Positions 24,549 through 51,040 of a DNA stretch of 64,000 nt are shown in pieces. Positions within the stretch are counted from its first letter, which is position 1. Each line of letters begins with the position of its first letter. The position numbers were made by a program, and so were the translations under genes. The stretch covers positions 1,111,318 through 1,175,317 of the forward strand of contig NC_003413.1 in assembly GCF_000007305.1 (NCBI RefSeq). Reading direction: 5' to 3'. This DNA comes from Pyrococcus furiosus DSM 3638. Lineage in GTDB: Archaea; Methanobacteriota_B; Thermococci; Thermococcales; Thermococcaceae. The notes below the pieces were generated by a model, which saw nothing but the letters and a program-made list of their open reading frames with translations, had not been told where the DNA came from and did not search any database.

Positions 24549-25073
24549 ATGACAATCCAAGAAGTTAGGGAAGGCCTCCCAATAGAAAAAATGGCAGATT
24601 TTTCCCTTGAAGAGCTTTTGGGAATGGCTATAAAGGCCGAAATTGGAGCTAGGGAATTTTATAAAAGTTTAGCTGAGAAGATAAAGATTGAAGCTCTAAA
24701 AGAAAAAATTAATTGGCTTGCTGAAGAAGAGAAGAAACATGAAGCCTTGCTAAGGAAATTATATTCTCAAATGTTCCCAGGAAAAGAAGTTGTCTTTCCA
24801 AAAGAACATATTGGTCCAGAGCTCCAGCCCGTTGCCAGAGAGCTTGAAAAAGTGCAGGATATAATAGACCTAATTCGTTGGGCAATGAAGGCTGAAGAAA
24901 TTGCGGCAGAGTTTTACCTAAAGCTCGAAGAAATGGTAAAGGAAGAAGAAAAGAAAAGGCTCATGAGATATCTAGCTGATATGGAAAGAGGGCACTACTA
25001 CACCTTAAGGGCCGAGTACGAGCTATTGCTCAATTGGGAAATGTACAGCCAAATGATGCACATAGGGCCGTGA
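24549..25073 (+). CDS. Rubrerythrin-like ferritin-family protein without rubredoxin domain
   Basis: A 174 aa four-helix-bundle protein with two ExxH di-iron half motifs: AEEEKKHEALL near residue 60 and ADMERGHYYTLRAEYE near residue 150. Glutamates in AEIGAREFYKSL and AEEIAAEFYLKL supply the other ligands. It lacks the C-terminal CxxC rubredoxin module of classical rubrerythrin, so it is an erythrin-type di-iron protein. A role in peroxide reduction or iron handling is likely from the family. GGTGATATTAC precedes ATG 24549. It converges on the encapsulin gene and is the first member of a cluster of similar genes. Confidence 0.85.
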   Translation: MTIQEVREGLPIEKMADFSLEELLGMAIKAEIGAREFYKSLAEKIKIEALKEKINWLAEEEKKHEALLRKLYSQMFPGKEVVFPKEHIGPELQPVARELEKVQDIIDLIRWAMKAEEIAAEFYLKLEEMVKEEEKKRLMRYLADMERGHYYTLRAEYELLLNWEMYSQMMHIGP

Positions 25074-25076
25074 ACT

Positions 25077-25862
25077 TCACTCTAAGACTACTATTGCCTC
25101 TGGGTTCTTTATTCTTATTCCTATAGCTTCACTAACCAAGAATGCAACGTCGTCTCCTTCAGGTCCTAGCTCTTGTAGAGTCACATCTTGGCCAACTACA
25201 ACGTCAAGAACAGCTGGTGTATTGGCAAATATTATTACCTTATTCTCATCAATGTTTAGAGTAACAATGATTCCTCCCCTGAATATCTCTTTTAGCACTT
25301 CAACTAGCATCTTTCCACTCTTCTCGTAAATTTTTAGCAACTTTGCATATCTTTTTGGGTTAATTATCAGCCCAAATGGTCCAGCTGACGCATTTGAGGC
25401 TTCCTGCAGTGCGTTCATTAAATCATTAAGTGCTTCTTCTGGATTGTCCCAGGAGGAAAGTTTCATTTTCTTAATTCCCTCTGTGGATAGAATTTCTCTT
25501 ATTACTAGCGACTCTTCGTCTTTAACTAGGAGTTCCCCAGCTTTAGTTGCTATAGATACATCGTAAGTCCCATCGTTGAGTTCTCTTATTCCCACATAGA
25601 ATTTCTTCTTCAATAATGGAATTGGCTTGTACTCTTGCTTTACTACCCTAACACCATCTTCAAATTTAATGATGTCAACCCTGAATGATTGTCCTTCTAT
25701 TCTCGTTACTGGCAAGTGCTTTAGTAAAGATCTTCCCTTATTTACCCCATCCAAAAGAGCACTTCTCAACTTCTCAAAATATTCCACGTTAGATTCCTCC
25801 TTCTTGTTATCATTTATGTGAGCCTCAATTCCAGTTAGCTCCTTGGACTTCCTCAAATCCAC
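25077..25862 (-). CDS. Encapsulin shell protein (HK97 fold), 3' part of a frameshifted fusion
   Basis: I recognise this as the shell domain of the P. furiosus virus-like particle, an HK97-fold encapsulin nanocompartment. Visible segments include FEKLRSALLDGVNKGRSLLKHLP, the E-loop/axial regions (SFRVDIIKFEDGVRVV, GPFGLIINPKRYAKLL) and VVGQDVTLQELGPEGDDVAFLVSEA. In the known 345 aa protein this is fused to an N-terminal ferritin-like cargo domain. Here the frame is reached only after a one-base shift at about 25845, where a CC (coding strand) must lose one C to read FEEVKELTG. The ATG-free start at 25862 (GTG) is probably not used. From 26115 to 25077 is 1039 bases: 346 codons plus one. Confidence 0.9.
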   Translation of the reverse strand: MDLRKSKELTGIEAHINDNKKEESNVEYFEKLRSALLDGVNKGRSLLKHLPVTRIEGQSFRVDIIKFEDGVRVVKQEYKPIPLLKKKFYVGIRELNDGTYDVSIATKAGELLVKDEESLVIREILSTEGIKKMKLSSWDNPEEALNDLMNALQEASNASAGPFGLIINPKRYAKLLKIYEKSGKMLVEVLKEIFRGGIIVTLNIDENKVIIFANTPAVLDVVVGQDVTLQELGPEGDDVAFLVSEAIGIRIKNPEAIVVLE

Positions 25863-26115
25863 CCTTCAGCTCAGTTACTTGTTCTGGATCCAAATTTAGA
25901 AGGAGTGCCATGAATTCTCCAACGTGAGCCTTCTCCTCCCTTGCAACATCAAGGAGAATCTTTCTTACGTTTTCATCTTCGGAATATCTTGCCATCTGCT
26001 CATATAGATTTATTGCATCAAGCTCAGCTATTATTGCTAATCTCAGAATTTCCATTAATTCTTCTTTGGTGTATGGCTTATCCCTATTTATAAGGGTTGG
26101 ATTTATTGAGAGCAT
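25825..26115 (-). CDS. Ferritin-like cargo domain, 5' part of the encapsulin fusion
   Basis: Encodes the N-terminal ferritin-like domain. ELMEILRLAIIAELDAINLYEQMARYSED carries the first glutamates and REEKAHVGEFMALLL the ExxH, making a half-bundle that dimerises to build a di-iron ferroxidase site inside the shell. ATG 26115 has GGTGATC upstream, and a TATA-like ACTTTTATAATCC lies 30-45 bases ahead. Read as given, it stops at 25825 after GGFEEVQGANWN. Dropping one base at 25845/25846 continues it into the shell protein. This would store iron oxidised on entry to the nanocompartment. Confidence 0.88.
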   Translation of the reverse strand: MLSINPTLINRDKPYTKEELMEILRLAIIAELDAINLYEQMARYSEDENVRKILLDVAREEKAHVGEFMALLLNLDPEQVTELKGGFEEVQGANWN

Positions 26116-26145
26116 GTAGATCACCACTTTAATTCTTCTTTGTGA

Positions 26146-26191
26146 GGATTATAAAAGTTTCGTAAAAAAATATTAAAAGGTGCAAATTGCA
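26146..26191 (-). promoter_or_regulatory. Promoter region of the encapsulin gene with TGCAA-A-TTGCA dyad
   Basis: Between the DPSL stop and the encapsulin start lies a minus-strand TATA-like AACTTTTATAATCC (about 26146-26159). A near-perfect dyad TGCAAATTGCA is at 26181-26191, roughly 25 bases upstream of it and four bases beyond the DPSL stop. This suggests separate initiation for the encapsulin gene rather than only read-through from DPSL. Binding of any factor is inference. Confidence 0.45.
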
Positions 26192-26194
26192 AAC

Positions 26195-26752
26195 CTATCT
26201 AGTTTTCAAAAACTTTGAGACATATGGACTTTCCCCAGGCTTTCCTCTTCTAAAGTGACCACTCGGCTTTCCAGTCAAGAGCTCTTCAAACCATGCTTCA
26301 TGCTCTATCTCTTCATGTAATATGGCAAGGGCCAAATCATAAGTCCTTGGATCCTTTCCAAAAGTGTAGTTGCATATTTCTGTATAGACTCCAACTGCAC
26401 ATCTCTCAGCTTCGAGTAGGACTTTTAGAATGTTCTCTATAGTGGGCTCTTCTGGTAGGTAGGCATCTCTACAAGAAGCTAGATCTGCAAATTCCCGAAT
26501 ATCCCTTGGTAATTCTCCTCCAAGCTCGTATATTCTTGGCACGAGGGCTTCAAAATGGTTTCTGTCCTCAAGTCTAGCATCTTCGATAATCTCCTTAATT
26601 GCTTCTCCTTCCAGACCTGTTGCATGGTTTCTAAGTATAGTGTAGTAATAATACGTTGTGAACTCTGCTGCAGCCGCTTTAATGAGAAGTTCCAACAGCT
26701 TCTCTACATCTATTCCTGTCCTTTCAACTAATCTCCTATTATGCTCTGGCAT
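26195..26752 (-). CDS. Dps-like protein (DPSL)
   Basis: A 185 aa ferritin-superfamily protein matching the archaeal DPSL, which forms 12-subunit cages and uses H2O2 to oxidise iron. Di-iron motifs are [35 protein letters not shown] and [15 protein letters not shown]. The DPSL-specific thioferritin cysteines are in LASCRDAYL and [13 protein letters not shown], near the di-iron site. A Gly/Arg-rich tail ends the protein. ATG 26752 is preceded by GTGAT. It is divergent from the Fur-like gene and directly upstream of the encapsulin gene on the same strand. Confidence 0.92.
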
Positions 26753-26771
26753 AAGGTATCACAAATTTTAG

Positions 26772-26836
26772 TAGACATTTCTATTTAATAAACTTTTCTG
26801 TTTAGAAATAACTTCTAACTAAAAAGCCTTATAAAG
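26772..26836. promoter_or_regulatory. Shared divergent promoter region with TTAGAA-N5-TTCTAA dyad
   Basis: TTAGAA (26802-26807) and TTCTAA (26813-26818) form a 6-5-6 inverted repeat. A related TAGA-N4-TCTA lies at 26772-26783. The first dyad ends five bases before the AAAAAGCCTTATAAAG BRE/TATA element of the Fur-like gene, and lies about 12 bases upstream of the minus-strand TATA-like GTTTATTAAAT of DPSL. It could bind a factor controlling both genes, such as the Fur-like protein itself. Confidence 0.5.
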
Positions 26837-26857
26837 TAAAAGGAAAACCTAAGAATC

Positions 26858-27241
26858 ATGTGGAAGGAAAAAGCCGTTAGAGTACTGAAGGAGAAGGGAT
26901 ACAAACTTACTCCCCAGAGACTTAAAATGCTAGAAGTAATTGAAGAGCTAGGCCCATCTCATCCTTCCCTCAATGAGGTTTTCAAAAGGCTCAAAGAAGA
27001 GTTCCCCACCCTAAGTTTCTCAACGTTATATTCCAATGTAATGACTCTAAAAGAGCTTGGACTCATAGAAACCCTCCCAATTAATGACGAGACACGGATT
27101 GAGATTAACACAAAGCCCCACATGAATTTAATTGAAGACGCAAAAATAGTGGATATAATAGATCCAGAAATCATTAAGATCATCGAAGAGAAATTAAAGA
27201 AGAAGGTAAAGTTCGTAAACGTTTTGGTTGAAAATGAGTGA
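26858..27241 (+). CDS. Fur/PerR-family transcription regulator
   Basis: A 127 aa regulator with the Fur winged helix: GYKLTPQRLKMLEVIEEL, HPSLNEVFKRLKEEFPTLSFSTLYSNVMTLKELGLIE. The dimerisation half is short, and the usual metal-binding HHH/CxxC patterns are reduced to TKPHMNLIEDAKIVDIIDP, so structural zinc is absent. The sensory metal site, if any, is unusual. It starts at ATG 26858 about 25 bases after its TATA box, so the mRNA is near-leaderless. Position between ferritin-like genes suggests it controls iron or peroxide response of this island. Confidence 0.85.
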   Translation: MWKEKAVRVLKEKGYKLTPQRLKMLEVIEELGPSHPSLNEVFKRLKEEFPTLSFSTLYSNVMTLKELGLIETLPINDETRIEINTKPHMNLIEDAKIVDIIDPEIIKIIEEKLKKKVKFVNVLVENE

Positions 27242-27248
27242 GTTGTCT

Positions 27249-27728
27249 TTACTCAACCTCCAAGCTAAAATCTTGATAGTCCATCCATATTCCAGTTTTC
27301 ATAACTGAATCATATTGAGCCTTTAAGAGCTCGTAGTGAGCCTTTTCCACCTTCGCTAAATCTTCAAATATTTTCTTAATTTTCTCATCTTTACTATCTT
27401 GGGCTGCTTTTTCATAGAACTCCCATGTAAGCTTTTCCTGCTCCATTCCTATCTTTACAGCATCAACCTCACTTAATCTTTCTTCATCAGCCTCTACGAT
27501 TAGTTTTTTCACGAGCTCTTCATTTACCTTTGGAAGTTCACACTTTTTGACAACTTCTTCCAAAAATTTCTTCTCAAAAATGTCCCAGTGCCCAGCTTCC
27601 TCCTGGGCCAAGAACAAGAACATTCTCTTAGCCCTTTCATCACTAGCTTTTTTCGCCAACTTTAGATAGAGGTTCAGCTCTCTTTTCTCAACTTCCAATG
27701 CCAATGCTAAAGCTTCCAGTTCATTCAT
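27249..27728 (-). CDS. Rubrerythrin-like ferritin-family protein
   Basis: A 159 aa two-repeat di-iron protein. AQEEAGHWDIFEKKF and AKVEKAHYELLKAQYD carry the ExxH motifs, and EVEKRELNLYLKL and GMEQEKLTWEFYEKA hold the partner glutamates. No rubredoxin module is present. The open frame extends upstream to 27941, but ATG 27728 has GGTGATT just before it and begins the conserved domain. It is divergent from another paralogue (ATG 27824), sharing a 95-base promoter region. Confidence 0.84.
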   Translation of the reverse strand: MNELEALALALEVEKRELNLYLKLAKKASDERAKRMFLFLAQEEAGHWDIFEKKFLEEVVKKCELPKVNEELVKKLIVEADEERLSEVDAVKIGMEQEKLTWEFYEKAAQDSKDEKIKKIFEDLAKVEKAHYELLKAQYDSVMKTGIWMDYQDFSLEVE

Positions 27729-27823
27729 ATTAATCACCATAATAACTGGTGTTTCAGAGAATACAAATATTTTTCCGTAAGATAAATATAGCCAAGTTAG
27801 CCATATTATTAAGGGGATACACA

Positions 27824-28378
27824 ATGAACATTGAAGAAGAAATTGTAAAAAAGTTAGAAAATCTTTCGATAAAGGAAATTCTCGGATATGCAATAGCTTC
27901 TGAGGAGGATGCAGAAAAGTTCTATTCCGAATTGGCCACAAAGCTTGGAGGACTATTAAAGGAGTTCTTTACCCAGCTTTCTACAGCTGAAAGAGGCCAT
28001 AAAGAAATTCTCCTAAGGATATACAAGAGTAAGTTTGGAGATGAAAACTATCCCGTTCCCGAGGGAATACCATTTGCAGAAACCACAATAAAAGTTGAAA
28101 CCGTTAGAAACTTAATTGAGGCCATGAAAATAGCTCTAACCAACGAAAAAACTGCAGAAAGAGTATACAAATATCTCGCTGAAAAAATGCCAGAACACAG
28201 GGAAATTTTTAAGTTCCTTGCAACCCAAGAAAGGAGCCACTATGAGTCGTTGAGAGCTCACAAGGAGTTCTTAGAGGATACAGTGGAAAGCAAACCCGAG
28301 TATATAGAGGCCCCACCCACTTACATCAGCTCCCAACTAGAGATACCATTTGGGCCAGAATATAGAGGAGCACGGTGA
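27824..28378 (+). CDS. Rubrerythrin-like ferritin-family protein, operon with NROR
   Basis: A 184 aa paralogue with [32 protein letters not shown] (ExxH), [17 protein letters not shown] and [17 protein letters not shown] (ExxH). It has a longer C-terminal tail (about 25 residues, Pro-rich) than its neighbours. ATG 27824 has AAGGGG upstream. Its stop lies five bases before the ATG of the NADH:rubredoxin oxidoreductase gene, so the two are co-transcribed. That supports electron supply from NADH to this di-iron protein, perhaps by way of rubredoxin. Confidence 0.86.
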
Positions 28379-28382
28379 TGAA

Positions 28383-29462
28383 ATGAAGGTAGTTATTGTT
28401 GGAAACGGTCCAGGGGGATTTGAGCTAGCGAAGCAACTATCCCAAACTTACGAAGTTACAGTTATCGATAAAGAGCCAGTCCCTTACTACTCCAAACCAA
28501 TGTTAAGCCACTATATAGCAGGATTTATTCCCAGGAACAGGCTCTTTCCTTATTCTTTAGATTGGTACAGAAAAAGAGGAATTGAAATTAGACTGGCAGA
28601 AGAAGCCAAGCTCATTGACAGAGGAAGAAAAGTTGTAATTACGGAGAAGGGAGAAGTGCCCTATGATACCCTAGTTCTAGCCACGGGGGCTAGAGCAAGG
28701 GAGCCCCAAATTAAAGGGAAGGAATACCTGCTAACTTTAAGAACTATTTTCGATGCTGACAGAATAAAAGAAAGCATAGAAAATAGCGGAGAGGCAATAA
28801 TTATTGGAGGGGGATTTATAGGGCTTGAACTGGCTGGAAATTTAGCTGAGGCTGGATATCATGTAAAGCTTATTCATAGGGGAGCAATGTTCTTGGGATT
28901 AGATGAAGAGCTTAGCAACATGATAAAAGACATGCTTGAAGAGACCGGTGTAAAGTTTTTCCTAAATTCAGAGTTGCTTGAAGCAAATGAGGAAGGAGTT
29001 CTCACAAATTCAGGCTTTATTGAAGGAAAGGTAAAAATATGCGCTATTGGAATAGTCCCAAATGTTGATCTTGCCAGGAGAAGCGGAATACATACGGGAA
29101 GAGGAATACTTATAGATGATAACTTTAGAACATCAGCAAAGGACGTTTATGCAATAGGAGATTGTGCAGAGTATTCTGGGATCATAGCTGGAACTGCAAA
29201 AGCTGCCATGGAGCAGGCAAGAGTTCTAGCAGACATACTTAAAGGGGAACCCAGGAGATATAATTTTAAGTTCAGATCAACGGTATTCAAGTTTGGAAAA
29301 CTTCAAATTGCCATAATAGGAAATACAAAGGGAGAAGGGAAATGGATTGAGGATAACACAAAAGTTTTCTATGAAAACGGCAAGATAATTGGGGCAGTAG
29401 TATTTAATGACATCAGAAAGGCCACAAAATTGGAAAAAGAGATCTTAGATTTCTACTCCTAA
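28383..29462 (+). CDS. NADH:rubredoxin oxidoreductase (NROR)
   Basis: A 359 aa FAD enzyme that passes electrons from NAD(P)H to rubredoxin, which then feeds superoxide reductase and rubrerythrins. The FAD motif [17 protein letters not shown] is at the N-terminus. The NAD motif [17 protein letters not shown] is near residue 140, and [10 protein letters not shown] near 260. I recognise the sequence as P. furiosus NROR. ATG 28383 is chosen because GGTGATG lies just upstream. It is the operon partner of the preceding di-iron protein and overlaps the convergent sfsA end by 18 bases. Confidence 0.94.
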
Positions 29463-30137
29463 CTCTCCTCTGTATATTATTTCTCCACTAAGCTCCATGT
29501 GAAGTCCCAACGCCCGAATTTCTACTCCAGCCTCAAGAGCTTCCTTTAACAATTCAGCAATTTTCGGATCTCCCTTCTTGTAGGGTTTAAATTTGCTTAC
29601 ATTTGGTAGGGCCCCTATAAACACAATCATGGCCCTTTTTCCATCTCTCGCCAACTTTATTAGCTCTTTTATATGCCTTTGACCTCTAACTGATGGACAA
29701 TCTGGATACATAGCATATTCCCCTTCCCTCAAAACTGCACTCTTAGTTTCTACGAATATCTCTCCTTTCGAACATTCAAGCAAATAGTCTAGTCTGGATT
29801 CTCCAACCCTTGGCTCTCTCTTTATTATTCTACAACCTTCCAGTTCAGGAAGAAGTTCCTTCTCAATTATTTTCTCAAATGCTTTTCCCTGAAGTCTAGT
29901 ATCAATGATTGCTATCTTTCCATGATCTTCAAATCCAAGAAGAATGTACCTTGTTTTACCGCCCGCTTTTGGAGTACAATAGCCTATTCTCCCTGGGATC
30001 ATGAACTCATTTAGTCTACCAGTATTTGTGATAAGAGCTCTTTCAATTCTTTCCTTAATTCTCACCAATCCCACAAATCGGTTAACTCTTCTTAAAAATA
30101 TACAAGGAAAAAGGGGAGAAACTTCCATAAGTTTCAT
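29445..30137 (-). CDS. sfsA: SfsA family protein
   Basis: A 230 aa member of the SfsA (sugar fermentation stimulation) family. Signature segments are RFVGLVRI near residue 20, [43 protein letters not shown] and [22 protein letters not shown]. The fold combines an OB-like domain and a PD-(D/E)xK-like nuclease core, and the cellular role is unsettled. Its ATG follows the stop of the upstream ferritin-like gene by two bases, so the two are co-transcribed. Why SfsA sits in this island is unclear. Confidence 0.88.
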
Positions 30138-30139
30138 CT

Positions 30140-30664
30140 TCAGAAATTGAAGTTTATATCTTTCATAAGCTGATCGTAGAATTCTTCTTTGTATATGTCT
30201 GGATAGCGAATTATGTATTCATATTGCTTCTTCAAAATATTGTAGTGGTTCCTTTCCATGTCGGCCAACATTTCAAGAAGAGTTTTTGCACTCTCAGTTG
30301 CAGCGTATTTTGATAATTCTTTGTATAGCTTTTCACTTACCAGTTCAGCTTCCATAGCAACCTCATATATCTCGTCGATATTCACATCTGGCTTCTTTAT
30401 TATTTCACTCATCTTCTCTGCTATTACCTTGAATTCTCCAAGAACTTCCAGCTTTACTTTTTTGCCTCCCCCTTCAGGAGCCTCGTATTTTTTGGCAATT
30501 TTTTCGATGATCTGCCTGTGTTTCTCCTCTTCATTCGCCAAAAATAGGAGTTCATCCCTAATTATATCACTCTTGGTCATAGAAGCCAACTTCTCATAAG
30601 CTTCTTTGGCCTTAATTTCGGAGTTTATAGCAATTTCAAAAATCTCTTTCTCAGTAACTTCCAT
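30140..30664 (-). CDS. Rubrerythrin-like ferritin-family protein
   Basis: A 174 aa di-iron protein with AINSEIKAKEAYEKLASM, LANEEEKHRQIIEKIA (ExxH), AMEAELVSEKLYKELSK and LADMERNHYNILKKQYEYI (ExxH). There is no CxxC rubredoxin domain. ATG 30664 is preferred to the upstream ATG 30676 because the GGTGATT between them is a ribosome-binding site. It is the fifth di-iron bundle gene of the island and leads into sfsA. The IS element begins about 60 bases upstream of its start, so its promoter region abuts an insertion. Confidence 0.85.
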   Translation of the reverse strand: MEVTEKEIFEIAINSEIKAKEAYEKLASMTKSDIIRDELLFLANEEEKHRQIIEKIAKKYEAPEGGGKKVKLEVLGEFKVIAEKMSEIIKKPDVNIDEIYEVAMEAELVSEKLYKELSKYAATESAKTLLEMLADMERNHYNILKKQYEYIIRYPDIYKEEFYDQLMKDINFNF

Positions 30665-30722
30665 GGAAATCACCATAATACCTAATTATTTCCCCATTAA
30701 AATGTTTTTCTTTCTTGACAGT

Positions 30723-31504
30723 GATACTGTCAGGATAACTGGGGCATCACCTCTTGAAGCCACTCAGTCACATCACCAGGCGGACAACCAAACCGAGAAT
30801 GAAACCTAACAAAATTATACCAGAACGCAAACAGAAAAACAAACCTGTGAACCCTCCTCCAGTCTCTAGCCCTGAAATTATTCCAGAAACGCTTTGTTCT
30901 TTCTTTTAAAGTCCTAAACCAGCGTTCAATACAGTTCCTCGGCCCGAAGGTTACGTGAACAAAATCCAGTCCAAGGGATTTAAAAGCAGACTTGTACCAC
31001 TTCCCACCATCAACCAGAAAAACAGGCTGTCCTTGCAGGATTTCAAAACAACCAGAATGAAGTCTCTAGCAATCCACCAGTTTCTGGTTGTTGTAATCCA
31101 GACTGCGAGAACTTCCCTGCTCTCAACGTCAAGTGCAGCCCAGAGAAATCTCTTCTCCCCGTTGATTTTTACGACAGTCTCATCAACTGCGATAAAATTC
31201 CTCTGTTTTCTTACTGCGAGGAGTGTTGGCTGGTAAACTGCTTCTGCTAGTTTTTGAACTGCCTCCCAGACTGTTGTGTGGCTGATTTTGAGGATTTTTC
31301 CGACTTGTCTGTAGCTGAGGCCTCGCAGGTATAGTTCTACTGCTCTGATTTTCTTTTCTGGTGGGATTTTGTTGCGGCGAAAAGGTTTTAAGACTGAAAT
31401 CAGTGAGTATAGAATGCTCTCAGCCTTCATTTCTCTCCCTTCTTTTTCTGAAAAATTATCAGAAACTTAAACCTAACGCCCTACCGCTTATCCTAACAGT
31501 ATCG
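30723..31504 (-). mobile_element. IS6-family insertion sequence, copy 1 (inactive)
   Basis: A 782-bp element. The left end reads GATACTGTCAGGATAA and the right end is the complement of GATACTGTTAGGATAA, a 16-bp terminal inverted repeat with one mismatch. It is nearly the same as the second copy at 50260-51040 but in opposite orientation. The eight bases on either side (TTGACAGT and GGATAAAA) do not match, so no target duplication is seen. That fits recombination between copies or later change. Its transposase is frameshifted. Confidence 0.9.
30730..31430 (-). pseudogene. IS6-family transposase, frameshifted
   Basis: It starts like the intact copy (HTH with RGLSYRQVGKILKISHTTVWEAV, then first catalytic Asp in FIAVDETVVKINGEKR). 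After ILVVLKSCKD it changes frame at about 31031, where one base is missing compared with copy 2. Restoring it gives QPVFLVD, the second catalytic Asp. Downstream, FGCPPGDVTEWLQEVMPQLS ends in the terminal repeat. The span is 701 bases against 702 in the intact copy. As read, only a 159-residue product lacking the second Asp and Glu is made. Confidence 0.9.
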
Positions 31505-45457: not shown

Positions 45458-45922
45458 CTAGACTATCCTCCCGTAGAAGTCATTTGCAACGTGTTCTGGA
45501 GTAATAGGAATAGGTTTTCCGCTTATGTTTGCTGAGGGAGCAGCTATGGGCTTTTTACTGAACTCTATGAGCTTTGAGGCTATTTCATTCGCGGACATCC
45601 TTATCGTTACAGTAGTATCTAAACCTTCTGTGGTTCCGTCTGGTACAAGTTCTCTCCTTGGGAAGACTATCGTCAATGAACCGGACCAAAACCTCTCGGC
45701 TAAAACCTTAACTTCCTCGGAAACTTCCCTAGCTAGCCCGTAACTGGGAGAATTTAGCCATGTACACTATAAGTAGGTTATCTGTTGGTCTTCCCTTGGC
45801 TTCAAATATCCTCTTCACAGCTTCCCCGTTCAAGGCGTCATCTCCTAGACCATAGATGGTTTCTGTGGGAAAAGCCACTAGCTTATCCCCCTTTATGAGC
45901 TTAGCAGCTATCCTATGGTCAT
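45458..45922 (-). pseudogene. Sua5/YwlC/YrdC (threonylcarbamoyl-AMP synthase) remnant
   Basis: The translation on the minus strand reads LIKGDKLVAFPTETIYGLGDDALN, IFEAKGRPTDNLLIVYMA, LAERFWSGSLTIVFP, DTTVTIRMSANEIAS and KPIAAPSANISGKP. These are the substrate-binding core of the Sua5 family. It is broken by a frameshift after MTI at the start (~45912). A tandem CTAG (GCTAGCTAGG near 45731-45736) brings a stop and another shift. The C-terminal Sua5 domain is missing. A full gene is about 340 codons. An intact copy must lie elsewhere, since t6A synthesis is essential. Confidence 0.85.
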
Positions 45923-47151: not shown

Positions 47152-47300
47152 GGTTAAGAGAGCTATCGGTAAAATAATATTCCATATCTGGCTTATCTCC
47201 CCTAGCAACTGGATATATCTCCTCAGGGTAGAAGACCTTCGTGTCCCACTTCTCTCCATTTGGCCCTCTTATTCCCTTTATCAACGTCTGCTATCCCCAA
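47102..47300 (-). pseudogene. Fragment of a type I phosphodiesterase/nucleotide pyrophosphatase-like protein
   Basis: The minus-strand frame reads RGPNGEKWDTKVFYPEEIYPVARGD, then KPDMEYYFTDSSLN. This is the pattern found late in AP-superfamily phosphodiesterases of Thermococcales. The junction with unrelated sequence falls near 47150. Just upstream (~47280-47350) a different phase reads MKVAKSHKNMKPWRKVRIKLGIADVD, starting within the ATP sulfurylase stop region, and may be another piece. Both ends are lost. Confidence 0.6.
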
Positions 47301-47356
47301 CTTAATTCTCACTTTCCTCCAAGGTTTCATATTCTTATGAGACTTGGCCACTTTCA

Positions 47357-48354
47357 TCACTCCACAAATGGATTCTCAAAGCTCCTTATAACTTCATAGA
47401 CTTCTGGCCTCCTCATGTACTCTGGAGGTTGTTCCCCGTTCATTATCATCTTTCTGAGCTTTGTGCCGCCTATGTGGACGTGGAATTCTTCACTGTGAGG
47501 GCAGATCTTCGCATTAACCATTCCACCATACTTCTTACAGTAGAAGACCTCCCTTATGAACATTGGAGTTATCCTCAGGTCTGGGAACTCGTTGAAGTCT
47601 TCCTCATTATCGCGTGGTGAGTAGTGTTCGAACAATACTTCATAATAAGATAATAAGCTTTAATTATGACCTCATCCTTGTAGTCCCCCTTCTTCTTCCT
47701 TCCTAGCACTGGATTTATGAAGAGGCCATCCACGAATGTTAAGGCGGCTTTTTGGACATATTCATGACCCAAGTGAGGGACATTCCTCGTCTGGAATGCT
47801 ACTATAGTCTTCCAACCCCTCTCCTTGAAGAGAATCCTAGTCTCCACTGGCCTTAGAGTATACTTGGCAAACGGGTTCGGGAGCTCATTTAACAGTTCAA
47901 TCCCCCCACCAACTAGGTATTTACCCATTGAATAAACCCTCGCAACCCCTAGGTGATTTGGATCATCCGTCTTGAATACCTTCACAGCAAACTCCTTCTT
48001 GTCATAGGTGTAGATGTCCTCAACGTGCATTCTGGCTATGGGAGGGTTCTCATAGTATAGTAAAATTGCATCTCCCCCCTCAAAGGTAGGTTCTCCAACA
48101 TCGAGGACTATTGGGATTGTCCAGGGAGTATCATCACTCAATCTCATATAATCAAGAACGCTCTCAAAGTCCTCCCTCGTTAGAAATCCCTTAAGGGGAG
48201 AATAAACCCCATGAGCAATGTTCTCCAGATCTATAGCTCTCCCATGGTCTATTTGAACTCTGGGATATTCATGTTGCTCACTGAGAATCCTTTCCCTAGT
48301 TCTTGGTGCAGCTATTCTCCTAATCAGCTTTCCTCCGTGGGGCTTTGATACCAT
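47357..48354 (-). pseudogene. sat: ATP sulfurylase with two internal deletions and a frameshift
   Basis: The 5' part (ATG 48354 with AGGTGAT upstream) is a normal sulfate adenylyltransferase. It has VSKPHGGKLIRRIAAPRTRE, HGVYSPLKGFLTREDFE, FQTRNVPHLGHEYVQKAAL with the HxGH ATP site, and GRKKKGDYKDEVIIKAY. About 25 residues usually following are missing before HHAIMRK. A second stretch including the conserved GRDHAGVG is also gone. The frame then shifts to DFNEFPDLRITPMFIREVFYCKKYGGM and on to the normal C-terminus at 47357. The enzyme cannot be active. A pseudogene by deletion, not just by a point error. Confidence 0.88.
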
Positions 48355-48450
48355 TTGTATCACCTAAAGTAAGCCATGTTCTTGTCTGTCCATCCAAACT
48401 CCATAACGCTTAAATATGATGCATGCATTCAATGTATTATGGTGAGTATT

Positions 48451-50259: not shown

Positions 50260-51040
50260 GATACTGTTAGGATAAGCTGTGGGGTGTCAGGTTTAAGTTA
50301 CTGGCAGTACTTTAGAAAAAGAAGGGGGAACATGAAGTCTGAAACCATTATTTACTGGGTGGTTTCAGCCTTAAAACCCTTTCGTCGCAACAAAATCCCA
50401 CCAGAAAAGAAAATCAGGGGAGTAGAATTATACCTGCGAGGCCTCAGTTACCGGCAAACCGCCAGAATACTCAAAATCAGTCACGTAACAGTCTGGGAGG
50501 CAGTCCAAAAACTCGCAGAAGCAGTTTACAAGCCAAAAATCCTCGCAGTCAAAAAACAGCGAAACTTCATCGCAGTTGACGAAACAGTAATAAAAATCAA
50601 CGGGAAGAAAAGATACCTCTGGGCTGCAATTGACGTTGAGAGCAAGGAAGTTTTAGCAGTCTGGATTACGACTGTTAGAAACTGGTGGGTTGCCAGGGAT
50701 TTCATTCTGGTTGTTTTAAAGTCGTGTGAAGGGCAGCCTGTCTTTCTGGTTGACAGGGCGAGCTGGTATAAGTCTGCTTTTAAGAGTTTGAGGTTGGGTT
50801 ATCTGCATGTGACTTTCGGGCCGAGGAACAGTGTTGAGCGCTGGTTTAGGACGTTGAAGGAGAGGACGAAGCGTTTCTGGAATAATTTCAGGGGTAAAGA
50901 CTGGAGGAGGGTTCATAGGTTTGTTTTTCTGTTTGCCTTCTGGTATAATTTTGTCAGAATTCATTCTAGTTTTGGTGATCCGCCTGGTGATGTTACTGAA
51001 TGGCTTCAGGAGGTGATGCCCCAGTTATCCTAACAGTATC
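50260..51040 (+). mobile_element. IS6-family insertion sequence, copy 2 (intact)
   Basis: A 781-bp element bounded by inverted GATACTGTTAGGATAA repeats (50260-50275 and complement ending 51040). Internal sequence nearly equals copy 1, in inverted orientation about 19.5 kb away. Flanking octamers (TAATCGAT, AGATGCAG) differ, so there is no target duplication. It encodes a full transposase. Pyrococcus IS6-type elements of this size (ISPfu group) are known to be active and to cause rearrangements. Confidence 0.93.
50332..51033 (+). CDS. IS6-family transposase (DDE), intact
   Basis: A 233 aa transposase. HTH region RGLSYRQTARILKISHVTVWEAVQ; catalytic Asp in FIAVDETVIKINGKKRYLW; second Asp in VFLVDRASWYKSA; catalytic Glu in GPRNSVERWFRTLKERTKRFWNNF. 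It ends GDPPGDVTEWLQEVMPQLS with the stop codon inside the right terminal repeat. ATG 50332 has GAAGGGGG upstream; an in-frame ATG at 50284 lacks such a site. It catalyses replicative transposition giving cointegrates, as known for IS6. Confidence 0.93.
   Translation: MKSETIIYWVVSALKPFRRNKIPPEKKIRGVELYLRGLSYRQTARILKISHVTVWEAVQKLAEAVYKPKILAVKKQRNFIAVDETVIKINGKKRYLWAAIDVESKEVLAVWITTVRNWWVARDFILVVLKSCEGQPVFLVDRASWYKSAFKSLRLGYLHVTFGPRNSVERWFRTLKERTKRFWNNFRGKDWRRVHRFVFLFAFWYNFVRIHSSFGDPPGDVTEWLQEVMPQLS

Follow-up and report, generated by a model that had tools for sequence, protein, structure and literature searches.

A one-base frame change in the ferritin-like/encapsulin fusion gene of Pyrococcus furiosus DSM 3638 is probably a flaw of the record or a rare variant, and the linker carries a candidate internal start for the shell

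Background

The Pyrococcus furiosus nanocompartment protein is described in excerpts of published papers as a fusion of a ferritin-like domain and an encapsulin, and assembly of this fusion encapsulin into a T=3 particle is reported there. The virus-like particle, or Flp-fusion encapsulin (PDB 2E0Z; UniProt Q8U1L4 as cited in the available part of PMC11202242), is the closest described system, and the gene analyzed here was found to encode the same protein (345 of 345 residues). Other described systems for comparison are the two-gene EncFtn and encapsulin systems of R. rubrum, M. xanthus and T. maritima. The window analyzed is a stretch of 64,000 nucleotides of the P. furiosus DSM 3638 chromosome (NC_003413.1, positions 1,111,318 to 1,175,317), and positions below are those of the window. 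The gene is already known, and its split in the window is probably a one-base flaw of the record. The split serves as a warning, since annotation of the record as it stands conceals a textbook nanocompartment gene behind two separate gene entries.

Results and discussion

The fusion gene lies in two frames in the window record

The features of the locus are as follows.

25825..26115, minus strand: ferritin-like (EncFtn) half, 96 aa, matching Pfam Rubrerythrin and EncFtn-like
26120..26125, minus strand: Shine-Dalgarno-like GGTGAT ahead of the ferritin-like/fusion start
25845..25846, minus strand: CC doublet with the surplus base, where the frame switches
25077..25862, minus strand: shell frame as given by the ORF finder, first GTG at 25862, Pfam Linocin_M18
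25796..25801, minus strand: internal Shine-Dalgarno-like AGGAGG, 8 nt 5′ of the internal GTG
25077..25787, minus strand: candidate free shell from GTG 25787, 236 aa, fusion residue 110 onward
26195..26752, minus strand: Dps-like gene, directly upstream on the same strand, NCBIfam Arch_DPS
24549..25073, plus strand: rubrerythrin-like gene, convergent, Pfam Rubrerythrin
26858..27241, plus strand: Fur-family regulator, Pfam FUR

The ferritin-like frame runs on the minus strand from ATG 26115 to TGA 25827–25825 and encodes 96 aa ending in QGANWN. The shell frame, of the HK97 fold, ends at 25077 on the same strand, is open throughout and differs from the frame of the ferritin-like half. The whole span from ATG 26115 to 25077 is 1039 bases, or 346 codons plus one, which confirmed the two frames and the length given in the original prediction. 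The switch occurs at CC 25845/25846 (minus-strand context gaagtCCaagg). The same prediction held that passing over one base of this doublet restores FEEVKELTG and the known protein; indeed, when GTCC was taken as one Val step, the sole four-base step in the full read, a protein of 345 aa containing FEEVKELTG was obtained, and its alignment with 2E0Z over residues 1–345 showed zero differences. Compared with the gene product in 2E0Z, the window record has one C more at 25845/25846, resulting in two open frames. The 99-residue chain of PDB 5N5E (PFC_05175), the excised EncFtn domain, was identical to residues 2–98 of the read-through and crosses the CC site in frame: following V90 it has KELTGIEA, whereas the free half of the window has QGANWN. 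When searched alone, the ferritin-like half was identical to 2E0Z over residues 1–90 (2–90 for 5N5E), and 257 residues of the shell frame were aligned to 2E0Z, all identical except the first two, which precede the junction. Because the separate searches matched the same 345-residue chain, the join of the halves is not a chance one.

In profile searches, the shell half scored above the cut-off of Pfam Linocin_M18 (69.9 bits, cut-off 24.3) and under that of NCBIfam encap_f1 (80.2 bits, cut-off 100), and the ferritin-like half, which also matches Pfam Rubrerythrin, scored above the cut-off of Pfam EncFtn-like (29.4, cut-off 27) and under that of NCBIfam EncB_fam (83.3, cut-off 90). Neither half matched a PHROGs family (E up to 0.001), and one scan of viral contigs with the shell alignment detected no viral relatives of the shell. 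The window gene possesses both the shell domain and the N-terminal ferritin-like domain of Family 1 encapsulins of the Flp-fusion type; the single open frame of this type is replaced by two frames in the window record and is present in all 10 fused relatives described below. We infer that the window gene is a member of the Flp-fusion type with a flawed record.

Fused relatives are in frame

A scan of genome contigs yielded one relative, L001, an intact 346-residue fusion from a Thermococcales metagenome bin. The L001 protein was matched in 85 of 94 Thermococcaceae genomes and had no match in 9. The match was full-length in 10 of the 94, each open and free of stops, and partial in 75, covering only the first part of the fusion and ending between residues 99 and 116. 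The shell profile was run on 115 genomes of the phylum, which judging from their labels and number appear to include the 94 family genomes, and gave matches in these 10 alone, each shell lying inside a longer open frame; genome completeness was not given and several genomes are in many contigs, so that shell absence in any single genome is not proof. The shell domain of the window was 62–75% identical to those of 8 of the 10 relatives aligned, and for the junction-region DNA the best-scoring match in the 94 genomes was 77% over 152 bases. The comparison with other Thermococcales encapsulins suggested with the original prediction gave a uniform result, as the inserted base was present at the junction in none of the 10 fused relatives.

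The gene is the known fusion of a ferritin-like domain and a family 1 encapsulin shell, with a surplus C in its record, and in living cells it would most likely be read through in one frame into the 345-residue particle protein. An error or a rare variant is favored because 2E0Z and 5N5E, which are protein records rather than reads of the window DNA, are in frame, because all 10 fused relatives are in frame and because the shell frame is open. We therefore consider that the extra base probably reflects a sequencing error or a rare variant in the sequenced DNA, not a standing split, and the surplus base is presumably missing from most cells of the strain. In resequencing of DSM 3638, the number of annotated pseudogenes fell from 74 to 53, which was read by the authors as corrected frameshifts (PMC6640164, as available in part); the available main text of that paper contains none of the terms PF1192, ferritin, encapsulin and virus-like. 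The literature search found no report of a frameshift in the P. furiosus encapsulin gene, which does not imply absence from print.

A chitinase gene at 55297–58540 (minus strand) is likewise split, in frames 57488–58540 and 55297–57450, and its pieces match positions 1–145 and 170–317 of the GH18 profile. According to the accessible part of PMC3575233, these pieces are PF1233/PF1234, the gene is whole in T. kodakarensis, and the extra base was confirmed by sequencing of a PCR product from a fresh order of DSM 3638 (the paper does not show the data). The two genes are alike in having one surplus base and differ in that the chitinase split was reported there as confirmed in the type strain and associated with a growth effect. 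Because this base was reported as confirmed, one-base splits in P. furiosus are not automatically errors. The original prediction favored error or strain variation on account of the known particle; this reading stood, being strengthened by the in-frame relatives, but it underrated real one-base splits such as that of the chitinase.

Programmed +1 frameshifting at GTC CAA, by which a single gene would yield the fusion and the free ferritin-like half in a fixed ratio, was also considered, as it is raised as a possibility for the chitinase split in the accessible part of PMC3575233. It appears very improbable for the encapsulin gene: the shift site is kept in none of the 10 fused relatives, and a common sense codon, CAA, rather than a stop would occupy the A site, with re-pairing of the P-site tRNA from GUC to UCC presumably required.

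Ferritin-like halves without a shell

Stand-alone ferritin-like halves, related to the fused one and lacking a shell match, were found in the 75 Thermococcaceae genomes with partial matches. For loci L013–L032, searching up to 1.5 kb on each side with the shell query gave no match at E below 0.1. Some stand-alone relatives showed a long open frame in the scan of family genomes; an N-terminal fusion was rejected in the 7 loci examined, in which the frame 5′ of the start was open for just 3–14 codons.

A tree was constructed from 26 ferritin-like domains, comprising the 11 fused ones and 15 stand-alone ones, drawn from the 20 that were available among the 75 found (L023–L027 were omitted). Stand-alone L013–L016 were grouped with all 11 fused domains (support 98/97), and L013 clustered with the window protein and L003–L006 (support 100/100). 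In the best tree, in which many inner forks are weak, the fused or stand-alone label needed 4 changes, and a minimum of 2 was required when only well supported branches were counted; therefore, either repeated loss of the shell or repeated origin of the fusion is implied. The many Thermococcaceae genomes with the half alone suggest a role of the ferritin-like half outside cages, and they make a split biologically conceivable.

A candidate internal start of the shell

On the minus strand, AGGAGG (25801–25796) is followed after 8 bases by GTG (25787–25785), constituting a Shine-Dalgarno-like site and a start codon in the shell frame. Spacing and duplex values were calculated with the sequence that we take to be the 16S tail. 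GTG 25787 and the ferritin-like start shared a spacing of 15, with duplex values of −10.0 and −7.8, respectively. Weaker values were obtained at the first shell-frame GTG 25862 (−4.8), the Dps-like start (−4.7) and the restart ATG of the chitinase (−5.6). A duplex of −10.0 was reached by 139 of the 5795 start triplets on both strands of the window.

As a control, 618 internal in-frame start codons from 62 ORFs of the window were used, excluding codons within 30 of either end as well as GTG 25787. At proper spacing, six-base matches were observed for 1, five-base for 10 and four-base for 67 of them, with none for 540. The sole six-base match is likely the true start of the rubrerythrin gene at 27728, where the homologues begin. 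The first 30 codons were free of any match of at least four bases in 24 of the 62 ORFs, indicating that a Shine-Dalgarno-like site is not needed for translation here. GTG 25787 corresponds to fusion codon 110 and lies at the domain border, as the shell is assigned to aa 110–345 in the available part of PMC11202242. The original prediction had expected no clearly started shell from the split gene; this expectation was not borne out, given a candidate start so well placed. The site is a good candidate start, and its use is predicted from the sequence.

If the gene is intact, a separate shell of 236 residues could be made from this site in addition to the fusion. If it is split as in the record, translation from the site would begin 37 bases past the ferritin-like stop and yield a separate shell, as in a two-gene operon. 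With a ferritin-like frame, a 37-base gap, a candidate ribosome site and a shell in succession, this layout is similar to those of R. rubrum, M. xanthus and T. maritima; it is different in that the window gene is a split fusion, the last six residues of the ferritin-like half being QGANWN. Certain phage endolysins have a secondary translation product (PMC4777826 and PMC7098653, as available in part), and if the internal start is used, the encapsulin gene would likewise give a full-length protein and its C-terminal part, although the endolysins are unrelated to encapsulin proteins and internal initiation in the encapsulin gene is a candidate.

The candidate start also bears on the possibility that the sequenced isolate does carry the extra C, in which case a free ferritin-like protein and a free shell from GTG 25787 would form free rings and empty cages. 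The AGGAGG and GTG at the domain border are consistent with such a split, as are the 75 of 94 family genomes with a ferritin-like half and no shell, the well supported position of the L013 half beside the window protein, the decamer formed by the excised half alone (5N5E and excerpts of published papers) and the split in the chitinase gene about 32 kb away, reported as real in DSM 3638 (PMC3575233, accessible part). Nevertheless, 2E0Z and 5N5E pass through the CC site in frame and none of the 10 fused relatives is split; furthermore, the shell frame is free of stops, and any real split would therefore have to be young. A real split is considered unlikely, and an error or rare variant remains the preferred reading.

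Possible conservation of the linker site

Like sites were found at linker codon 108 in 5 of the 10 fused relatives, with matches of 5–6 bases and a spacing of 15. The start is ATG in L003–L005, which are close kin (90–100% to L001), GTG in L007 and TTG in L008. In L006, GGAGG is retained and the start is replaced by ACG. The codon-108 site is missing from L009–L012; ATG 93 is preceded by a five-base match in L009–L011, and GTG 90 by a six-base match at wider spacing in L012. In the protein alignment, the window Val is three columns off the start residue of the relatives in a gapped linker, so that the sites are not necessarily homologous. Like sites also occurred elsewhere, at codons 93 (L003), 270 (L006), 69 and 326 (L009), 326 (L010), and 258, 268 and 283 (L012).

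Synonymous codons were shuffled within each gene 2000 times, the region having been picked after the sites were seen and the relatives being treated as independent. For codons 100–114, 6 sites were seen in 11 genes versus 0.98 expected, and 4 in 7 representatives versus 0.48 expected, numbers reached by 0 of 2000 shuffles in both cases. For the wider linker (codons 88–114), sites were seen in 5 of the 7 representatives versus 1.42 expected (reached by 2 of 2000). Chance per gene was 0.045 for the window, 0.33, 0.35 and 0.08 for L003, L004 and L005, 0.004 for L007 and 0.023 for L008. On the shell tree, the site label required 3 changes and was not clearly clustered, 142 of 500 shuffles being as low. 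The linker site may have one origin.

On these sequence grounds, we tentatively propose, as a rather unlikely but consequential possibility, that in P. furiosus and some relatives the fusion gene would produce two proteins, the fusion and a free shell started in the linker from AGGAGG-N8-GTG (or ATG/TTG). If so, the number of ferritin-like domains in mixed cages would be below 180, which would reduce the mismatch with decameric rings that is pointed out for 180 domains in the available part of PMC11202242, and use of the start would change the understanding of how much cargo fused cages contain. An ancestral separate shell gene may have left the site behind as a relic, retained for its usefulness; a harmless relic of such an older gene, or a chance origin in a Glu-rich linker, is equally possible. 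Among the titles of the literature matches listed, none concerned an internal start in an encapsulin, which does not imply absence from print.

Neighboring genes and other split genes in the window

The region 24549–30676 contains a cluster of ferritin-like and rubrerythrin-like genes (at 24549, 25825, 26195, 27249, 27821 and 30140) together with the Fur-family regulator; by gene content, its theme is iron and oxidative stress. The gene order of the window presumably follows the P. furiosus numbering, with pyruvate kinase as PF1188, the Dps-like gene as PF1193 and NADH-rubredoxin oxidoreductase as PF1197. The ferritin-like protein is named PF1192 in the available part of PMC5012862. On the same scheme, the shell frame would correspond to PF1191, and this would be consistent with annotation of the gene as split in the 2001 genome.

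A codon-usage frame scan of the window gave 30 adjacent same-strand pairs, many of which were ordinary neighbors by eye. Besides the chitinase, the ATP-sulfurylase gene (47357–48363, minus strand) has pieces in different frames, matching profile positions 2–82 and 128–211; the small frame beside them (47223–47360) matched no family. The Sua5/YrdC-like gene (45458–45878, minus strand) lies in two frames, matching profile positions 10–55 and 77–147. Two IS240-type transposase frames are present, one of 159 aa (30951–31430, minus strand) and a 249-aa copy (50284–51033, plus strand); by eye, the former is shortened by a frame change relative to the latter.
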